A DNA stretch of 64,000 nt from Rhodothermales bacterium (GTDB taxonomy: Bacteria; Bacteroidota; Rhodothermia; Rhodothermales; Bin80): positions 1 through 64,000 of the forward strand of contig JAJEDR010000076.1 in assembly GCA_022821385.1 (NCBI GenBank), given 5' to 3'. Below, piece after piece: positions 18,365 to 26,960 of this stretch (position 1 is its first letter; each line of letters opens with the position of its first letter). A program made the translations under genes and the position numbers. The notes under the pieces were generated by a model. It made no database searches. It was not told the DNA's origin and saw only the letters and a list, made by a program, of their open reading frames with translations.

Positions 18365-19140
18365 TGCCTAGGTCAACGAGGCTGACTTACGACGACATAA
18401 TATAATATGTGCGTCCCCAAATTGCTGAGTGACAGTTACTTTTTTCTCCGGCGACAATTGAAAGATTCACTGGCGGTGGGAGCGCATACAGGCCGACGAG
18501 ATCCATCGCAGACGTATGCTATGCATTCAACTATCGATTGAGGTCACGCGTACCGTGCGCCAGCGGACTGTTTACATATTGGTTCTACCCGCAATATTCA
18601 CGGTAGAATTGATCTAGTGTTTCGCTGGATGTAGTGGGAGTGAAACGCTTGCGATGGTGCATTTGCGCCACCTGCAGGAAGGCAGCTAGAATCCTCCCCA
18701 CAACAGGTAGCACATCAGGGCGATTAGAGCGGCAAGCCACACATTTGCGCCCACAAGGAGCCAAGTATTCACGTTTAATTTACAACAGTTCTTTGTATCA
18801 CTCATTGTCCCTAGTTCGATTTACGACTGCCGTTGTGCCAATTAGGATACGAAATTCACTTGTTAAGTATTGTAAGTTGCTCCCCAAAGAATATGTATGA
18901 TGACAAATCAGTGAGTGCATTCAGAGATCTCAACCTCAAAAAAAAAGAGCAACCACGGCTGGGAAGCACTGAAGACCGAGGTTTGATAGTGGGCTGCCAT
19001 ATCAGTCCTTGGCTCAGATTTGAATTTCTAGGGAACGTTAAATGCACGGTTGTAATTACAATGAACGGATAAACAAGCGCCCTGCCTTAACCAGTGCTTG
19101 CACCTCGAGAGCTTGGCGCGAACAATTACCTCCACAAGCC
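18365..19140. other. 776 bp divergent intergenic region
   Basis: This lies between the M16 peptidase (leftward) and thiL (rightward). Frames here (for example 18634-18900, 18833-19072) have no family resemblance. An AT-rich stretch at about 18397-18407 (ATAATATAATATG) lies upstream of the M16 start and could be its promoter. A longer thiL frame opens at 19042, but its first 33 codons do not match the family. I see no TPP riboswitch motif before thiL. Confidence 0.35.
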
Positions 19141-20169
19141 ATGTCCAGTATTGAGCAGGCCGGGGAATTCAATCTGATCCATCAACTGACCTCTATTGGT
19201 TCCCCGAACGTCGAGCCTCCGATTATTGCGGGGATCGGTGACGATGCGGCGGTTTATCGCACCAATCACGATAGGGTACAGGTGGTGACAACAGATGCCC
19301 TGATCGAAGGATATCATTTCGATTTTGCGTTCTATAGCATGGAGGACGCTGGCTATAAGGCCATGGCCGTCAACCTCAGTGATATTGCTGCGATGAACGG
19401 TCGCCCTATTCTGGCTACGATAGCACTCGGGATACCCGGATCCGTGTCCATGGAAAACCTGGAAGCGCTCTATAGAGGCCTTGCGGCTAGTGCTTCCGCC
19501 CACGGGGTGCAGATTGCAGGCGGAGACACTACACGCGCACCCGTTCTAATGCTTACCATTACGGTTATTGGTGAAGCCAAGGCGTCAGAAATCGTCTACA
19601 GAAACGGCGCACGACCAGGTGACCGGATATGTGTGAGCGGAACGCTGGGGGATGCCGCTGCGGGGCTGGACATTCTGCGCCACGGAATTAAACCCGAGGC
19701 AGTTGGATCAAAGGCTTGGGATTTTCTTGTCGCCCGTCACCTACGGCCAAACCCCCGATTAGATCTTGTTAAAGAATGGGCCTCGCAAGGCATACGCCCC
19801 TCCGCCCTCATTGATATCTCGGACGGATTGGCGAATGAGTTACATCATATTTGCGCAGCGTCGGGGTGTGGAGCCACGATACGGGAATCCAGACTACCCC
19901 TGTCCAAAGCACTGATGGCTGCGTCCGTTCTGGAGCGGGGGTCCGTTGATTATGCTCTCAACGGAGGAGATGATTATGAATTACTCTTCACAGCTTCGGC
20001 GCAAGACCTACAAAAGGCGAATCCGAAATCCTTTTACACGATTGGAGTCATCACGGAAAAAGACATCCTGCTTCATCGAACAGATGACTCCGTTGAACCG
20101 TTGGTGCCAGCAGGACACGACCATTTCAGCGTGATACAGTCAACTACGCCACCGCCCCGAGCTCCTTAA
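19141..20169 (+). CDS. thiL: Thiamine-monophosphate kinase
   Basis: ThiL phosphorylates thiamine monophosphate to the active cofactor TPP. The protein (342 residues from ATG 19141) carries the PurM-fold signatures GIGDDAAVY, TTDALIEGYHFDF, MAVNLSDIAAMNG, GGDTTRAP, ISDGLANELHHI and GGDDYELLF. I chose ATG 19141 because family proteins begin at the EFxLI block (GEFNLIHQL), and the 33 codons upstream are not conserved-looking. Its 3' end overlaps the convergent DprA-like gene by 26 bp. Confidence 0.93.
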   Translation: MSSIEQAGEFNLIHQLTSIGSPNVEPPIIAGIGDDAAVYRTNHDRVQVVTTDALIEGYHFDFAFYSMEDAGYKAMAVNLSDIAAMNGRPILATIALGIPGSVSMENLEALYRGLAASASAHGVQIAGGDTTRAPVLMLTITVIGEAKASEIVYRNGARPGDRICVSGTLGDAAAGLDILRHGIKPEAVGSKAWDFLVARHLRPNPRLDLVKEWASQGIRPSALIDISDGLANELHHICAASGCGATIRESRLPLSKALMAASVLERGSVDYALNGGDDYELLFTASAQDLQKANPKSFYTIGVITEKDILLHRTDDSVEPLVPAGHDHFSVIQSTTPPPRAP

Positions 20170-21043
20170 GCTGTTCGACTGTTTGAGAAACTTTACGTCC
20201 AACCAATAACCTAAACAGTTTCGACCGCAGAAAATGGTCCGCGGTTTTGGCAAACCCAAGAGCTGCAGAAGCTGTCCTAAATTGATCATTGCTGTTTTTT
20301 GAGCCATCCACATAGAGCAGCTCATCAGCCAACGCTGCTGCTAAAGATCCAACGTTTCCTCGATCACCGGATTTCTGCGGAGCTTCTGGACTCTGCGCCG
20401 TAATGAGAACCATTTGTCCCCTGCTAAGCGCTTGACGATTTGGTTTCTCGAGACGCTGTTTAAGAGGTCCATTGTGCAATATCCAAATGACACTCCCTGA
20501 GTGCTCCTGGGTTGTCTTCACAAGGTCTATTGCCATCTTGAGGTGTCCAACCACAATGACGGTCTGTCCCTTTTTCACGGCCTCTCTAGCAGCTTTACAG
20601 GCTTTTTTTGACCGGCCCGGCGGGATACGATCAGGTCCAATAATGGCTAATCCCCCGTTCGTCAGAAGCGTCGGATTTCCTGTACCAAAGATCAACGGCG
20701 GCGCCTCTACGCGCATCCTGCTTCGAATCCTTCCTGGATAATCTTCATCGCTTCGGGCAAAGATCCAAAAACCTTTTCGCTGCCATTCTTCCAGACAAAA
20801 CCCCAGATTGATTCGACGATCCAAGAGCCATTGAAGTCGGGAAGGATCAACTTGGGCGCTTCTGGCAATTTCATGTACAGGTGCATCACCAAGGAGGAAC
20901 GCGGGTCTCTTTTGACGCCGATAAAGGATGGTGGCCACACGGTTATACTCCGCAAGCCGTAGTGGATGGTGCTTCCCTTCACCTCCCTGAAATGCGCATA
21001 GCAAAAGCACTGCACAGGCATCATCAGCCGGTAATTCACTCAT
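20144..21043 (-). CDS. DprA-like Rossmann protein (second, short)
   Basis: This 299-residue protein is a paralogue of the gene just upstream. It has the same N-terminal module (VLLLCAFQGGEGKHHPLRL, then AEYNRVATIL), a helical part with LGFCLEEWQRKGFWIFARSD, then YPGRIRSRM and PPLIFGTGN leading into a DprA/Smf-like Rossmann core (GLAIIGPDR, TVIVVGHLKMAID, GSVIWILHNG). Canonical DprA has SGLAxGID in this core; here the segment reads VGHLKMAID, so the classical nucleotide/DNA-binding loop is changed. It ends with a short basic helical tail (FRLLVGRKVSQTVEQLKEL). It overlaps the upstream gene by 8 bp, so it is translated with it. I infer a DNA-binding or nucleotide-sensing subunit of the RecQ unit. 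Confidence 0.7.
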   Translation of the reverse strand: MSELPADDACAVLLLCAFQGGEGKHHPLRLAEYNRVATILYRRQKRPAFLLGDAPVHEIARSAQVDPSRLQWLLDRRINLGFCLEEWQRKGFWIFARSDEDYPGRIRSRMRVEAPPLIFGTGNPTLLTNGGLAIIGPDRIPPGRSKKACKAAREAVKKGQTVIVVGHLKMAIDLVKTTQEHSGSVIWILHNGPLKQRLEKPNRQALSRGQMVLITAQSPEAPQKSGDRGNVGSLAAALADELLYVDGSKNSNDQFRTASAALGFAKTADHFLRSKLFRLLVGRKVSQTVEQLKELGAVA

Positions 21044-22358
21044 CGGTAATGGAGCTAAACAAGTCGATCTGGGCGCTCAAGTCTGTGGTCGCGAGTATGT
21101 CGACTTCGTCGTCATCATCCTCGATGTTTTCCTGTCTGCCTGTCGACACCTCGTCCAGTTCAAACAACTCGCCTTGAATGCATTCTCTGTAGATAGGGGA
21201 ATCTCCCCGATCATCCGCAGTCTCTGTCTGGGGCTCCTGCTTTACTTCATCATCGGATTCAGTGTGTACCGCTTCCGATTCGCGTACCTCTTCCGAGCTA
21301 CTTTCCTGATCAATTGATTGCGACGCTGCCGCCTCGCTCAATTTGATCTCAGGATCGGGATCGTCTGTCTGTGCGTGTTCTTGCTGGCTTGTATCTGAGC
21401 GTTTTGGCGAGCCCTCAATAACTTCCGGCTGCAATTCCGGAGGCTCATCGCTGATCTCAAGCAGTTCTTTTTTCAATAGCTCCGCGCCGGAGTCGGTTAA
21501 CTCAAATACGGATTCTGTGGGCTCTCCACTAACATGCACATAACATTTTTTCAATTCAAGAAATTCACGCACGGCCGATTCAACGCAATACCAGTCCGTA
21601 CTGATCTCTGAGCTATCCACATAGACTACCGAATCACACAATGTCATCAGCATTTGTCCCACTTGTGGCTCTTCGCTCAATGACCGTTTATCAACGGGAC
21701 TGCGACTAGATAGCAAAACCGTTTTTCCGGCCGTCCTTGATCTGCGAACTGGTTTTTCCAAGGGTATACTTAGTTCATCTCCCTGGAGCACCCATATAAC
21801 GGATCCCTTAGCATCAAGAGCACTCTTGACTGCATTTTCCCCAATAGACTGTCTCCCAGCAACGATTATTGCATGACCATTCTCTGCATAAAATTTTGCC
21901 AGCTGTTGGACGCTTTCCGCTGACTGCCGCGTTGCCCCCTCCGGTCCTACAATCGCTGTGCCGCCCTGATCAATGATCGTTACTTCCCCGGTCCCGAACA
22001 GGACTGGGGGTGCCAGTGACTTCATGGACTGTTTTATTCTTTTCGGATACGCTGCATCCCCGCGGCCAAGGATCCAAAAATCTCTGCGCTGCCACTCCTC
22101 AAGGTGAAATCCCAAAGTAATCCTGCGCTCCAGAAGCCCGGAAATACGATGGTAGCCAAGGCGCGTCTCCTGTGCCGCATTTTCAGCACACGAGCGCTTG
22201 ACCAGGTCCATTGGACGATGGTCATTCTGGTGAAGCCATGTCGCCAGCAGATTATATTCCGGTAATGTGAGCGGCTTATGCTCCCGTTCTCCACCGAACC
22301 AGGCACATAGAAGCAAAGTCACATTGGTATCGTCGGACAGGGGCCAGGTCATGATCAT
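21036..22358 (-). CDS. DprA-like Rossmann protein with acidic tail
   Basis: This 440-residue protein has an N-terminal module (LLLCAWFGGEREHKPLTLPE, about residues 15-34), a helical segment (LGFHLEEWQRRDFWILGRGD), then YPKRIKQSM and PPVLFGTGE before a DprA/Smf-like Rossmann core (TAIVGPEGA, AIIVAGRQSIGENAVKSA, GSVIWVLQGD). The SGLAxGID loop of competence DprA is replaced by AGRQSIGEN. From about residue 285 the chain is a long, very acidic, low-complexity tail ending with QGELF (395-399) and QIDLF (430-434). Both fit the QxxLF sliding-clamp-binding pattern. Start ATG 22358 overlaps the RecQ stop (ATGA); ATG 22352 is also possible. It is the middle gene of the RecQ/DprA/DprA unit. Confidence 0.72.
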   Translation of the reverse strand: MIMTWPLSDDTNVTLLLCAWFGGEREHKPLTLPEYNLLATWLHQNDHRPMDLVKRSCAENAAQETRLGYHRISGLLERRITLGFHLEEWQRRDFWILGRGDAAYPKRIKQSMKSLAPPVLFGTGEVTIIDQGGTAIVGPEGATRQSAESVQQLAKFYAENGHAIIVAGRQSIGENAVKSALDAKGSVIWVLQGDELSIPLEKPVRRSRTAGKTVLLSSRSPVDKRSLSEEPQVGQMLMTLCDSVVYVDSSEISTDWYCVESAVREFLELKKCYVHVSGEPTESVFELTDSGAELLKKELLEISDEPPELQPEVIEGSPKRSDTSQQEHAQTDDPDPEIKLSEAAASQSIDQESSSEEVRESEAVHTESDDEVKQEPQTETADDRGDSPIYRECIQGELFELDEVSTGRQENIEDDDDEVDILATTDLSAQIDLFSSITDE

Positions 22359-24463
22359 CCAGACAAGCTATGTTTGACCAGGGCCACCGGTCGCACGCTT
22401 GGACATCCATCATGGCGCAGCAGCGCAGAAGCTGTGACCATTGTCCAACCACTGACACTTATGTCATCGATCAGGAGCGTTGACTGTTTGCAGGATCTCT
22501 CGATCATAAATGCATTGGCCACATTAAGAGCACGCTGCACCTCATTTTTCTGATCACTCTGCCGTGCCCCCTCGCCCGTCCTCGCAACAGCGTGAACCAG
22601 AGGTCTTCCAAGTTGCTCAGCAACTGCCGCTGCCAAGAGAGGCACATGCCGCCTGTTGTTGCGGGGAGGCACATAGGTTACGCATCCGATTCCTTTGTTT
22701 TTAGCCCATTCCTGTAACCTGTGAACGAACGCATCCACCACTATCTTTGAATACTGGTTTCCATAATTTCGCTCCCTCAAAATTTGATCACCGAGTCCCA
22801 TATCAAAAGCTCTGCAAAGCGCAAACCCCGGCAGCATTCGATGAGCTTTGTCAATCGTGATGCCGCGTTCGTGAATGGGGTGATCCGAGATTTCTGCGAT
22901 TGGCCACTCACGGCGGGGCGATATAGCATACCGTCGTTTTTTGATGAATTGTTCTGCCTCAATTACCAACTCCGGTTTGGGCTGGTGAGACTTGTTGGCC
23001 CTGTTCATACAGTTCCGACAACGGCCGCAGTCTTGCGCAGAATCATCATCAAGGGCCCGTTGCAAAAATGCCATAAGGCATCCACTGTGACGCATGTATT
23101 TACGCATCTGCGCCTTCTCAGATGCGCGAACTCTCCGTAGCCGGGCAATGTACTCTGGATCAACCTTGAAACCACCGGCTTCACCAGTTGCATACCATTC
23201 CCGCCCCTGCTGAATAACCGGTGCGGGGGACTCAAGAGAGGCGAGCTTCAGCACCTTCTCGATCTTGGATTTCTTTAGATTAACCGCCGCCATGATTGCA
23301 TCAATCTCTAAACCGCCATCCGCATTCTCGAGCACATCGAGCACTTGATTGATCTCATTCTGAGGGGGGAAGGCATTATCCATGAAGTAATCAACGATAC
23401 GCTCATCCTCTTCCCCCCAAAGCAGAAAACCGTAGGCATCATCAATTCCTCGTCCTGCTCGTCCCACCTGTTGGTAGTAATGCACAGCAGACCCAGGTCT
23501 CTGGTAATGAATAATGAACTTCAGGTCAGGTTTATCAAAACCCATCCCCAAGGCGATAGTCGCAACCAGGGCCTTGATCTGGTTGTTTAGGAGTTGTTGT
23601 TCCAACTCTTCCCGTTGGCCTGCGTTACCGTAGTAGGATGCCGCTTGGATCCCCTTGTACCGAAGCCAGGAAGAGACAAGGTCCGCATCCTTGCGTGTGA
23701 GAACATAAATGATCCCACTCCCCGAAAGACGTGGCACCACCTGTGCTATCCATGCCAGTCTCACTTTGGGATCAGGCAGCGTGAGGTTGTGAAGCTGTAG
23801 GCTGCGCCGCACTAGGCTCCCGCGACTAACCTGAATATCTCCGCCCAGCTGCTGCCGTACATCTTGGACGACGCGATCGTTCGCCGTAGCAGTCGTGGCT
23901 ACAATGGCAGCTCCCTTCGGAATAGCCTGCTGAACCCTGCGAATACGCCGATAATCTGGACGAAAATCATGTCCCCAATCTGATATGCAATGGGCCTCAT
24001 CTATGATCAGCATTCCGAGGCCCCTTGTGATCAGTGGCAGCGTGCTCCGGGTAAAATGGCCGCTAGCCAGCCGCTCGGGCGTGATCATGAGGATATCCAC
24101 CTCGTCATTTTGGAGTTCCTCCCGAATCTCTCCCCAATCCCCAAAATTATCGCCCGTCATCCTGCGTGCCTTGAGCCCAAGCGTAAACGCTGCATCCTCC
24201 TGATTACGCATCAGCGCGAGAAGCGGAGATATCATCAGCGACGGTCCCAGGCCTGCTTCCCGCCTGATCTTGGTGGCAATAGTATAGACCATCGTCTTCC
24301 CCCAACCCGTTCGCTGGACAACCAGGACCCGTTCCCCCTTTACGGCATGCTCAATGCTCTCCCATTGCCCGTCACGAAATTCCGCCTGTTCGTTCCCTAC
24401 CGCATCGCAGAGGTAACGGGTCGCCACTTCCCTCAAGTTATCCGGGTTCTTCGATTTTGACAT
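22355..24463 (-). CDS. RecQ-type helicase fused to phosphoribosyltransferase domain
   Basis: This protein (702 residues from ATG 24463; an upstream TTG frame to 24496 is less likely) begins with a complete RecQ SF2 helicase: FRDGQWESI, Walker A QRTGWGKT, DEAH box IIDEAHCISDWGHDFRPDYR and motif VI QQVGRAGRG. A zinc-binding RecQ C-terminal region follows (a lone Cys, then CGRCRNC) with a winged helix. In place of an HRDC domain, the last 160 residues look like a type I phosphoribosyltransferase: a ComF-like core with the PRPP loop TLLIDDISVSGWTMVTASAL. It follows the metalloprotease gene by 13 bp and overlaps the first DprA-like gene by 4 bp. The role is inferred to be DNA repair or defence. 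Confidence 0.85.
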   Translation of the reverse strand: MSKSKNPDNLREVATRYLCDAVGNEQAEFRDGQWESIEHAVKGERVLVVQRTGWGKTMVYTIATKIRREAGLGPSLMISPLLALMRNQEDAAFTLGLKARRMTGDNFGDWGEIREELQNDEVDILMITPERLASGHFTRSTLPLITRGLGMLIIDEAHCISDWGHDFRPDYRRIRRVQQAIPKGAAIVATTATANDRVVQDVRQQLGGDIQVSRGSLVRRSLQLHNLTLPDPKVRLAWIAQVVPRLSGSGIIYVLTRKDADLVSSWLRYKGIQAASYYGNAGQREELEQQLLNNQIKALVATIALGMGFDKPDLKFIIHYQRPGSAVHYYQQVGRAGRGIDDAYGFLLWGEEDERIVDYFMDNAFPPQNEINQVLDVLENADGGLEIDAIMAAVNLKKSKIEKVLKLASLESPAPVIQQGREWYATGEAGGFKVDPEYIARLRRVRASEKAQMRKYMRHSGCLMAFLQRALDDDSAQDCGRCRNCMNRANKSHQPKPELVIEAEQFIKKRRYAISPRREWPIAEISDHPIHERGITIDKAHRMLPGFALCRAFDMGLGDQILRERNYGNQYSKIVVDAFVHRLQEWAKNKGIGCVTYVPPRNNRRHVPLLAAAVAEQLGRPLVHAVARTGEGARQSDQKNEVQRALNVANAFMIERSCKQSTLLIDDISVSGWTMVTASALLRHDGCPSVRPVALVKHSLSG

Positions 24464-24476
24464 CACGCAGGACGTT

Positions 24477-26960
24477 TCAGTGGCTGCACCACTCAATTGC
24501 AGTGGCTGAGAGTAGCGCGCGGTGCGTTTGGCGGCGTACGTCAGCGCCGATCGGAGAGCCAGGTGGCATCACTGCACGTGGTCGGCGGTCATCAGGGCTG
24601 TACTCTCTCAAGAGGTATTGCTCAATTTGATCCAGTACCATCCTGCGATGATAGCGGGTTTCTGAATCCCGCTGAGGCACCTCAGCCTCCACGAGCCACT
24701 CCGTGAACTCACGAAGCCGTTCCATAACCATCACCCGCACCGCGGGGGCGGCATCACGCTCATTTGCCAATCCAATCAATTCATCAATCCACACCTGTTG
24801 CACTACGCGCTGCAGTTCGGCATCGTACGGATCATCTGCAACAGGTATTCCCCAGACTGCGTCGCTCACGATCTCCATAATGCCATGGAAATCCGGAAGG
24901 GTGTCGTCGTGGTCTCGCTGATACGTCATACGGGCTGTGCGCGCTGGATTGAGGATCTGAGCAAATACCAGCGTAGCAACCGCAGCAGCAGGCGTGTAAG
25001 CATCAAAGGTCAGGCCCGTGTGGCGATCAAACAACTCGCGATGCGCCGAAAACCCAGGTGGGCGGGGAGGCATGCCGGTTCGGACACTTTCCGGGACGCG
25101 AAGAGCCTCCGGCGAAACTGCCTCCAACAATGCTTCCAGCGCTGCCAGTTGCACCGAACCCGTAACCGGCTCCACCAGTGCCTGACTGTCTCCACGCATC
25201 GCATAGGTGTAGGTTACTCCGCCCAGTAATTTGACCGTAGCCTCCACCTGATACCTGTGTCGCAGGTAGAGTGGGACCAGCACTTCCTCCATGGTTGCCA
25301 GTGGACGTCCTTTACGTATAACTTCTTGACCAAAACGCGCCAGAGCAGCATCCCTGATCGCCATTTCGTGCTGAAGGGCGCTTACCATTTCGTCACCATT
25401 GTCCCAGAGGTTGGCGAGCGGATGTGCTGCACCGGCGGGACGTGCGTCCGCGTCGGTGATATAATGCAAGCCACGATTCCAGGCCTGCTGCAGGATTGCG
25501 CTCAGTAGCCCCTCTTCGCTGTCACCTGGTAACGGCTGAGCATACCCATAGGCAATGGCAACCTTATCCCACTCACCGATACCGGTTGAGTAGGCCCCAT
25601 CCAATTGGATCTCTCCGGCTTCATTAAACAGGGCATATGGGGCAGGATAGTCCATGACGGACGCCCGAGCGTTGACAGAGGACGCAAAATTATGGCTGAG
25701 GCCAAGCGTGTGTCCGACCTCGTGAGCAGACAGCTGTCGGATACGTGCGAGCGACATGGACAACATTGGATCGTCGGATGTGAGTGAGTCACCGTAGGGG
25801 GCAAGGAGCCCTTCGGCGATAAGGTAGTCTTGTCGGACCCTGAGTGAACCGAGCGACACATGCCCCTTGATGATCTCACCGGTGCGGGGGTCTGTCACAC
25901 TTGATCCGTAACTCCAGCCGCGAGTAGCACGGTGCACCCACTGAATCGTATTGTAGCGCACATCCATTGGGTCTGCTCCATCCGGCAATATTTCAATCTG
26001 AAAAGCATTGGAGAAGCCAGCTGCTTCAAATGCATCTGACCACCATCGGGCACCATCCAGGAGCGCTCCCCTGACCGGCTCGGGTGTACCTGGATCCAGA
26101 TAGTACACGATGGGTGACACGGGGTCGCTGAGTACTGCACTTGAATCCGCCTTGATCAGACGATGACGCCGAATGTAGCGCTTCACCATATCCTCTCCGA
26201 TGGGCGCTGCATAATCCATGTAGCTAATTGCACCGTACCCGGCTCCAGGATGAAACACTCTGGGGGTGTACCCTTCATCGGGCAGCATAACAAATGAGTG
26301 TCGCACACTTAGGGTCACCGAATATGGATCAGCTGCCACATCACGTACGAAGCGTCCGGGAGCATCAGACGTGAACGTTATTCTCGCTTCCATCTCGGTG
26401 TTTCGCGGGAGGGCCTTAAGCATATCTGGAATGGGAGCGCTTCGACTCTTGTCCAGACTGAAATTACCTTGTTGCGCCCCCCGCAACCTGCGAGTAATTC
26501 CGTTAGCATCTCTAACAACAAAATCTGTCGCATTTACAAGGATTCTGTTTTCCTCCTCGGCCTCAACTTTGAACCCCCAGAGGATGGCTTCCGCAAAGGC
26601 CTCACTGACGGAGGCTTTCTCTGCTGCTGATTCCGAATCAGCGCGATAGCGCAGGTTTGGCATAACGAGAAGAATCTTGGGCCCGCTACGCTCAAACCGG
26701 ACCAGGCGCGTACTGCCTAACTGGCTTCTGTCTAATCCAATGTCATTGGATCCCAACCCTGCAGGCATGGAAGTTACATAGATGAACTCCTGATTCAATG
26801 CAGGAATTTCAAGATAGATTTCACCGGAATCCGAATGCCAGTACACGGGAAAGAAACCGTCCCGTTTGTCCATGTCCTTTGTTTTCTCGGTAATGGACTG
26901 CACTCCCTGTCCGTACGCGGGCAGACAAAATAGCAGTAGTGATAAGGTTAAGAGGCGCAT
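24477..26960 (-). CDS. Secreted zinc metalloprotease (DUF5117/DUF4953 type)
   Basis: This 827-residue protein has a signal peptide (cleavage near AYGQ, residue 18). N-terminal beta domains of the DUF5118/DUF5117 type come first (GFFPVYWHSDSGEIYLEIP, then FIYVTSMPAGLGSNDIGLDR). A metzincin catalytic motif HEVGHTLGLSH (around residues 410-420) is followed by a Met-turn-like SVMDYPAPY. The C-terminal third is helical. It is exported, probably for protein degradation or outer-membrane-associated processing. It is divergent from atpD and lies 13 bp upstream of the RecQ-like gene, so the RecQ/DprA genes may be read from its promoter. Confidence 0.92.
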   Translation of the reverse strand: MRLLTLSLLLFCLPAYGQGVQSITEKTKDMDKRDGFFPVYWHSDSGEIYLEIPALNQEFIYVTSMPAGLGSNDIGLDRSQLGSTRLVRFERSGPKILLVMPNLRYRADSESAAEKASVSEAFAEAILWGFKVEAEEENRILVNATDFVVRDANGITRRLRGAQQGNFSLDKSRSAPIPDMLKALPRNTEMEARITFTSDAPGRFVRDVAADPYSVTLSVRHSFVMLPDEGYTPRVFHPGAGYGAISYMDYAAPIGEDMVKRYIRRHRLIKADSSAVLSDPVSPIVYYLDPGTPEPVRGALLDGARWWSDAFEAAGFSNAFQIEILPDGADPMDVRYNTIQWVHRATRGWSYGSSVTDPRTGEIIKGHVSLGSLRVRQDYLIAEGLLAPYGDSLTSDDPMLSMSLARIRQLSAHEVGHTLGLSHNFASSVNARASVMDYPAPYALFNEAGEIQLDGAYSTGIGEWDKVAIAYGYAQPLPGDSEEGLLSAILQQAWNRGLHYITDADARPAGAAHPLANLWDNGDEMVSALQHEMAIRDAALARFGQEVIRKGRPLATMEEVLVPLYLRHRYQVEATVKLLGGVTYTYAMRGDSQALVEPVTGSVQLAALEALLEAVSPEALRVPESVRTGMPPRPPGFSAHRELFDRHTGLTFDAYTPAAAVATLVFAQILNPARTARMTYQRDHDDTLPDFHGIMEIVSDAVWGIPVADDPYDAELQRVVQQVWIDELIGLANERDAAPAVRVMVMERLREFTEWLVEAEVPQRDSETRYHRRMVLDQIEQYLLREYSPDDRRPRAVMPPGSPIGADVRRQTHRALLSATAIEWCSH

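Follow-up and report, generated by a model that had tools for sequence, protein, structure and literature searches.

The 64,000-nucleotide stretch analysed here (the window; positions 1 to 64,000 of contig JAJEDR010000076.1, assembly GCA_022821385.1, from a Rhodothermales bacterium) contains a compact operon of three reverse-strand genes. PsyrT (RqlH-like; 22355..24463), which starts with ATG and encodes a RecQ-type helicase with a C-terminal phosphoribosyltransferase (PRTase) domain (702 amino acids), is followed by two genes for DprA-like antitoxin homologues; these are PsyrA1 (21036..22358; 440 amino acids), which has lost the DprA pocket and carries an acidic disordered tail from about residue 300, and PsyrA2 (20144..21043; 299 amino acids), which has also lost the pocket and is without the tail. 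PsyrT and PsyrA1 overlap by 4 bp and PsyrA1 and PsyrA2 by 8 bp, in agreement with an initial annotation of this DNA. That annotation regarded the genes as an unnamed candidate system; however, a system of this kind has already been described as PsyrTA (PMC4670107), and PADLOC matches PsyrT at an E value of 5.4e-238 over residues 12-699 of 702, PsyrA1 as PsyrA at 5.6e-56 and PsyrA2 as PsyrA at 5.9e-44, while both DprA-like units match Pfam DNA_processg_A. The operon is thus almost certainly PsyrTA, alias RqlHI, a module known as a toxin-antitoxin pair and as a candidate for phage defence. The kind of system is familiar; what is new is the variant, with a duplicated antitoxin, a lost pocket, tail motifs and a fixed locus. 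Two other identities were rejected. ShosTA does not fit, since the PRTase here is fused to a helicase and PADLOC gives a ShosA score of 2e-5 for PsyrA1 and none for PsyrA2; in the case of the Dpd (7-deazaguanine) cluster, the DpdF models match mainly the helicase part (6.6e-80 vs 5e-238 for PsyrT), and the operon has AtpDC, a metalloprotease and ThiL as neighbours, not a dpd gene cluster.

The helicase part of PsyrT matches Pfam DEAD (2e-25) and Helicase_C (1e-13) and has intact helicase residues, with Walker A (QRTGWGKT) and DEAH conserved; the domain search gave no match to HRDC. In an AlphaFold2 model built with 85 homologues (predicted local distance difference test, pLDDT, 91.5; predicted template modelling score, pTM, 0.87), the best structural matches of the first 495 residues are RecQ/BLM catalytic cores (VIA Z 41 over 400 residues), and the original assignment as a RecQ helicase therefore holds. 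The Foldseek/VIA matches listed for the whole model are helicases only, so that the PRTase part is barely tested by fold. At the C-terminus, Pfam Pribosyltran (E 0.012) and comF (4e-6) both score below their cut-offs; against the PDB, the profile of this region hits phosphoribosyl pyrophosphate (PRPP) synthetases and PRTases (3e-5), hhalign aligns it with the Hpt of the same genome at the PRPP motif, and the whole protein is homologous over its full length to PsyrT, whose PRTase was defined experimentally. These observations support the earlier assignment of a C-terminal PRTase, which we regard as a PRPP-binding PRTase-type domain with predicted catalysis.

In extraintestinal pathogenic Escherichia coli (ExPEC), the PRTase domain is the genotoxic part of RqlH, the DprA-like RqlI binds and restrains RqlH, and the substitution D663A abolishes toxicity (PMC4670107). 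With ExPEC numbering fixed by the ExPEC-type allele of strain U12A (K49/D148/D663), D667 of the window PsyrT, within the PRPP-loop motif LLIDDISVSGWT (residues 663-674; 22442..22477), aligns with this essential Asp; the protein also retains the DD pair and the remaining invariant residues of the PRTase. A third Asp (ExPEC D666, the Hpt-type Asp of DDIVDSGWT) is replaced by V, S or T in PsyrT of the window clade. We compared 80 PsyrTA loci from named genomes of more than 12 phyla, collected with the PRPP-loop pattern as seed, and the third Asp is present in all 79 of the others; a hidden Markov model (HMM) survey of the phylum gave the same picture, with the residue present in nearly all PsyrT loci found. 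Toxicity may therefore remain in the window clade, with altered chemistry.

The same survey of named genomes bears on the antitoxin. PsyrA stands directly behind PsyrT in 76 of the 80 loci, which bears out the functional coupling of the genes proposed initially, and two of the other four stop at a contig edge. Exactly one PsyrA is present in 75 of the 76 loci that have it, the exception being the clade of the window itself. Two members of the genus (G009 and G001) have even a third DprA-like unit, fused to A1. In a tree of the units, the whole window clade sits on one long branch (support 100/100, length 1.12), within which A1 (100/99) and A2 (100/99) form sister groups and the single copy of the sister genus (G010) falls outside both; this topology indicates one duplication before the genus radiated. 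A natural A1-A2' fusion from a relative was modelled as two well-folded DprA-like units (pLDDT about 80-97) with disordered joining segments, and its best fold matches are DprA and ShosA structures.

Both antitoxin homologues have abandoned the DprA/SLOG pocket, which accommodates a ligand or single-stranded DNA. All 75 PsyrAs compared share its four motifs, GSR, SGGA[RK]GVD, GGTxxGA and an RNK segment, with next to no variation; none of the four survives in A1 or A2, in the third units or in the one PsyrA of G010. In PsyrA1, GPE (21939..21947) stands at the place of GSR and AGRQSIGE (21837..21860) at the place of SGGA[RK]GVD. The loss is found in A1 and A2 of every genome and predates the duplication. 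Several Bacteroidota PsyrAs that a strict pattern had marked as pocketless were dropped, as reading shows intact SGFAKGVD, GSR and GGTWSG. The initial annotation saw in the three genes a unit that unwinds, senses and handles DNA; a setting of conflict or DNA stress survives from this proposal, which, however, overlooks the pocket loss in both DprA-like proteins. No DprA above the TIGR00732 cut-off was found in the genomes of the genus. The supposed canonical DprA of four genus members falls below that cut-off, and two of these genes have a PRTase gene directly upstream and so look ShosTA-like. These four DprA-like genes (L199-L202) end in QLELF or QLQLGF, and a clamp-like tail may thus occur in ShosA-type proteins too.

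The tail of PsyrA1 is acidic (about 30% D/E), predicted to be disordered and poorly conserved save for one five-residue block. This block, QGELF in the window (residues 395-399; 21162..21176), reads QGELF, QLELF or QLDLF (Qx[DE]LF) in 10 of 10 A1 orthologues, compared with 0.12 expected from shuffled tails, and its column conservation is 0.90 vs 0.43 and 0.32 on its flanks. A second motif near the C-terminus, QIDLF in the window (residues 430-434; 21057..21071), occurs as QIDLF, QVQLF or QGSLF in 6 of 10 orthologues. We take tail motifs of the QxxLF type to be the sequence class of bacterial sliding-clamp-binding peptides. The motif recurs in PsyrAs across phyla: Qxx[LMI][FL] falls within the final 15 residues in 25 of 74 complete PsyrAs, compared with 4 of 412 neighbouring proteins (p 1e-18), and anywhere after the DprA core in 38 of 78 PsyrAs (shuffled mean 1.2, maximum 6). 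Its variants include QLSLL in cyanobacteria, QPxLF in Chloroflexi and, just after the DprA core in gamma-proteobacteria, Q[AVPHN][DEN]LF, found also in ExPEC RqlI (QPELF). In the window genome, MutS carries a motif of the same kind (QMTLF), as does a short open reading frame (QQNLF) beside a DnaE2-like gene. That genome has the DnaE2-like gene (L209), and no Y-family DNA polymerase (PF00817) was found in it. The A1 tail thus has the kind of peptide found in sliding-clamp clients, and binding to the clamp (DnaN) is predicted. The likeness to known clamp-binding proteins such as MutS and ImuB lies in a QxxLF-type peptide within a disordered region; the difference is that DnaN binding of PsyrAs is a prediction. 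No link of PsyrTA or DprA-like antitoxins to the clamp was found in the open-access literature, of which coverage was incomplete.

The operon occupies a fixed place. The gene order AtpDC, metalloprotease, PsyrT, A1, A2, ThiL is the same in 10 of 10 genomes of the genus, as expected from the stable, non-island context described initially, and PsyrT identity among them ranges from 64 to 91%. Upstream of PsyrT, 13 bp from its ATG, lies a met-zincin gene of the DUF4953/DUF5117 type (24477..26960, reverse strand), which adjoins the operon in all 11 genomes having it; on the other side, PsyrA2 shares 26 bp with the 3' end of ThiL (19042-20169, forward strand), a convergent gene. A scan for promoters and terminators gave no signal above chance. 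In the sister genus (G010, L049) the operon is found at the same place with a single PsyrA, and the window-type clade was not found in four further genera of the family. Across the phylum, about 32 of 394 genomes have PsyrT proper as judged by full-length score, so that its distribution outside the genus is patchy. Ratios of nonsynonymous to synonymous substitution (dN/dS) among close relatives are 0.11-0.15 for PsyrT, 0.22-0.32 for A1, 0.20-0.27 for A2 and 0.13-0.18 for ThiL, and all three operon genes are under purifying selection. All three reading frames are intact and conserved throughout the 10 genomes, with dN/dS of 0.11-0.32, and the operon is therefore not a product of chance. Such a fixed site, together with strong constraint, points more to a resident role in genome integrity than to a mobile defence cassette.

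A second type of PsyrTA is present in the genus. In the window genome it lies on another contig (C86, L010; 6189-9734 and 9854-11851), where PsyrT is fused in frame to an exonuclease I (SbcB)-like protein (1181 amino acids in total) and is followed by one 665-amino-acid protein of two DprA-like units, which arose by an independent duplication. It shares with the window operon a PsyrT (43% identical) followed by two DprA-like units, and differs in that both units lie in one protein, that unit 1 keeps the canonical pocket while the motifs of unit 2 are lost, and that the helicase is fused to an exonuclease. We considered this fusion as a new architecture and rejected it; among the nine other genomes of the genus, eight have the exonuclease as a separate gene of ordinary length and the ninth shows only a fragment of it, indicating that the fusion is private to the window genome. 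In a further genus member (G005, L053:8371-15032), the C86-type PsyrTA adjoins a type III restriction-modification gene pair; the exonuclease I gene and a gene of the ROK family bound this site, which, in contrast to the window locus, resembles a defence hotspot. Co-occurrence with another defence system, a check suggested in the initial annotation, is seen for this second, canonical type and not for the window copy. Other arrangements were also observed among relatives. Two loci (L057:2437-6453 and L051:5668-12813) have two tandem-unit PsyrA genes each, giving four DprA-like units, and in L051 these genes flank PsyrT; in several genomes of one Bacteroidota genus (L069, L071 and L072), PsyrA remnants lie behind an intact-looking PsyrT, which may therefore persist without an antitoxin there.

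By sequence, the PRTase-type domain of the window PsyrT has the residue required for toxicity, and A1 and A2 are paralogous PsyrAs that have lost the pocket. We propose a model, to which we give about an even chance, whereby the operon is a vertically inherited, specialised PsyrTA with an antitoxin pair that holds the toxin at the replisome. A1 and A2 would use their conserved N-terminal part to bind PsyrT and would hold its PRTase inactive, and the A1 tail would tether the complex to the sliding clamp, so that the tethered helicase could work at or behind the fork under control. Disturbance of the fork or clamp, by infection or a replication block, or loss of the antitoxin would free the PRTase, which might then upset purine nucleotides or DNA and lead to the SOS response, filamentation and arrest, effects that have been described for RqlH and ShosT. 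For the latter system, a review describes disturbance of purine metabolism by ShosT and DNA binding by ShosA (PMC12593503). A broader proposal, which we advance tentatively and with the chances somewhat against it, is that PsyrA-type antitoxins are generally clamp-tethered via QxxLF, hold the helicase-PRTase toxin at the replisome, guard replication and release the toxin upon a takeover of the clamp or fork; the window clade would then be an extreme form, with the DprA pocket abandoned and the copies multiplied.

Several points weigh against the specialised, clamp-tethered system. Toxicity, defence and binding in this operon are predictions; the arrangement of the units in the fusion model is not confident (pTM 0.49); and PsyrT, having lost the Hpt-like Asp, may have ceased to be toxic here. 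The clamp motif is short and may have other partners, and about half of the PsyrAs are without a clear one. Moreover, residues 1-320 of ExPEC RqlI, which end about where QPELF lies, still neutralise RqlH (PMC4670107), and the motif is thus not needed for neutralisation; it would instead serve localisation or sensing.

A rival reading is an ordinary PsyrTA, acting in abortive infection or as a toxin-antitoxin system, with a duplication, a decayed pocket and tail motifs that reflect inconsequential drift. The full-length family match, the gene order and overlaps as in RqlHI and the canonical PsyrTA that the genus has next to type III restriction genes (L053) all fit such a system; we nevertheless consider it unlikely, given that all pocket motifs were lost in both copies in every genome before the duplication while the three genes remained strongly constrained, that the chromosomal place is fixed in 10 of 10 genomes, that the duplication is absent from 75 other loci, and that one PsyrTA from E. 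coli failed to protect against phage in a single test (PMC12409345). At the other extreme, the operon may encode a fully domesticated repair or fork complex, a helicase with two regulatory subunits and a non-toxic PRTase serving as a sensor of PRPP or nucleotides. Core-gene behaviour in the genus under purifying selection, the lost Hpt-like Asp beside intact helicase residues, the clamp-like motifs in A1 and the existence of bacteria with RqlH only (PMC4670107) are in accordance with this view; however, PsyrT keeps the toxicity-essential PRPP-loop Asp and other invariant PRTase residues, and no genome has shed the antitoxin homologues, which have instead gained copies; this suggests that there is still something to restrain, so that full domestication, too, appears improbable.

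Two further explanations fare far worse. A DNA-uptake module for natural transformation, with A1 and A2 replacing DprA and the PRTase replacing ComF, could draw on the absence of any canonical DprA over the family cut-off in the genus and on the ComF-like score of the PRTase, yet the part that has been lost is the conserved DNA-binding pocket of DprA, and PsyrTA is a proven toxin-antitoxin pair elsewhere; we consider it very improbable. The strongest form of the initial annotation, a novel defence system of three components without kinship to those already known, appealed to three coupled genes with DNA-handling folds, and the direct PsyrT and PsyrA family matches in PADLOC rule it out as a new kind, leaving it a negligible probability.

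The recurring clamp-like motif bears on how PsyrTA senses trouble and on what a DprA-like antitoxin does, a question that extends to E. coli RqlI as a carrier of QPELF. The pocketless, duplicated and fixed version provides a natural experiment separating toxin restraint from the DprA pocket, and in the window clade what seems to be a defence module has joined the core genes of a single genus.

Among known systems, ShosTA likewise combines a PRTase toxin with a DprA-like antitoxin, and one of the top structural matches to the PsyrA1-type fusion model is ShosA (8zva); in contrast, ShosT is a stand-alone PRTase without a helicase, and PsyrA1 scores 2e-5 with the PADLOC ShosA model vs 6e-56 with PsyrA. 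The closest relative is PsyrTA/RqlHI itself (Pseudomonas syringae PsyrTA and ExPEC RqlH-RqlI, PMC4670107), with which the window operon shares a RecQ-like helicase-PRTase fusion followed by an overlapping or abutting gene for a DprA-like antitoxin, the D663 equivalent and helicase motifs, and a motif of the QPELF type, as in ExPEC RqlI. The window clade differs from it in having two PsyrA units (three in some relatives) instead of one, in the loss of all PsyrA pocket motifs and of the Hpt-like Asp of PsyrT in the window operon, and in the C-terminal helix-turn-helix, which is replaced in A1 by the acidic tail with clamp-like motifs and is missing in A2.

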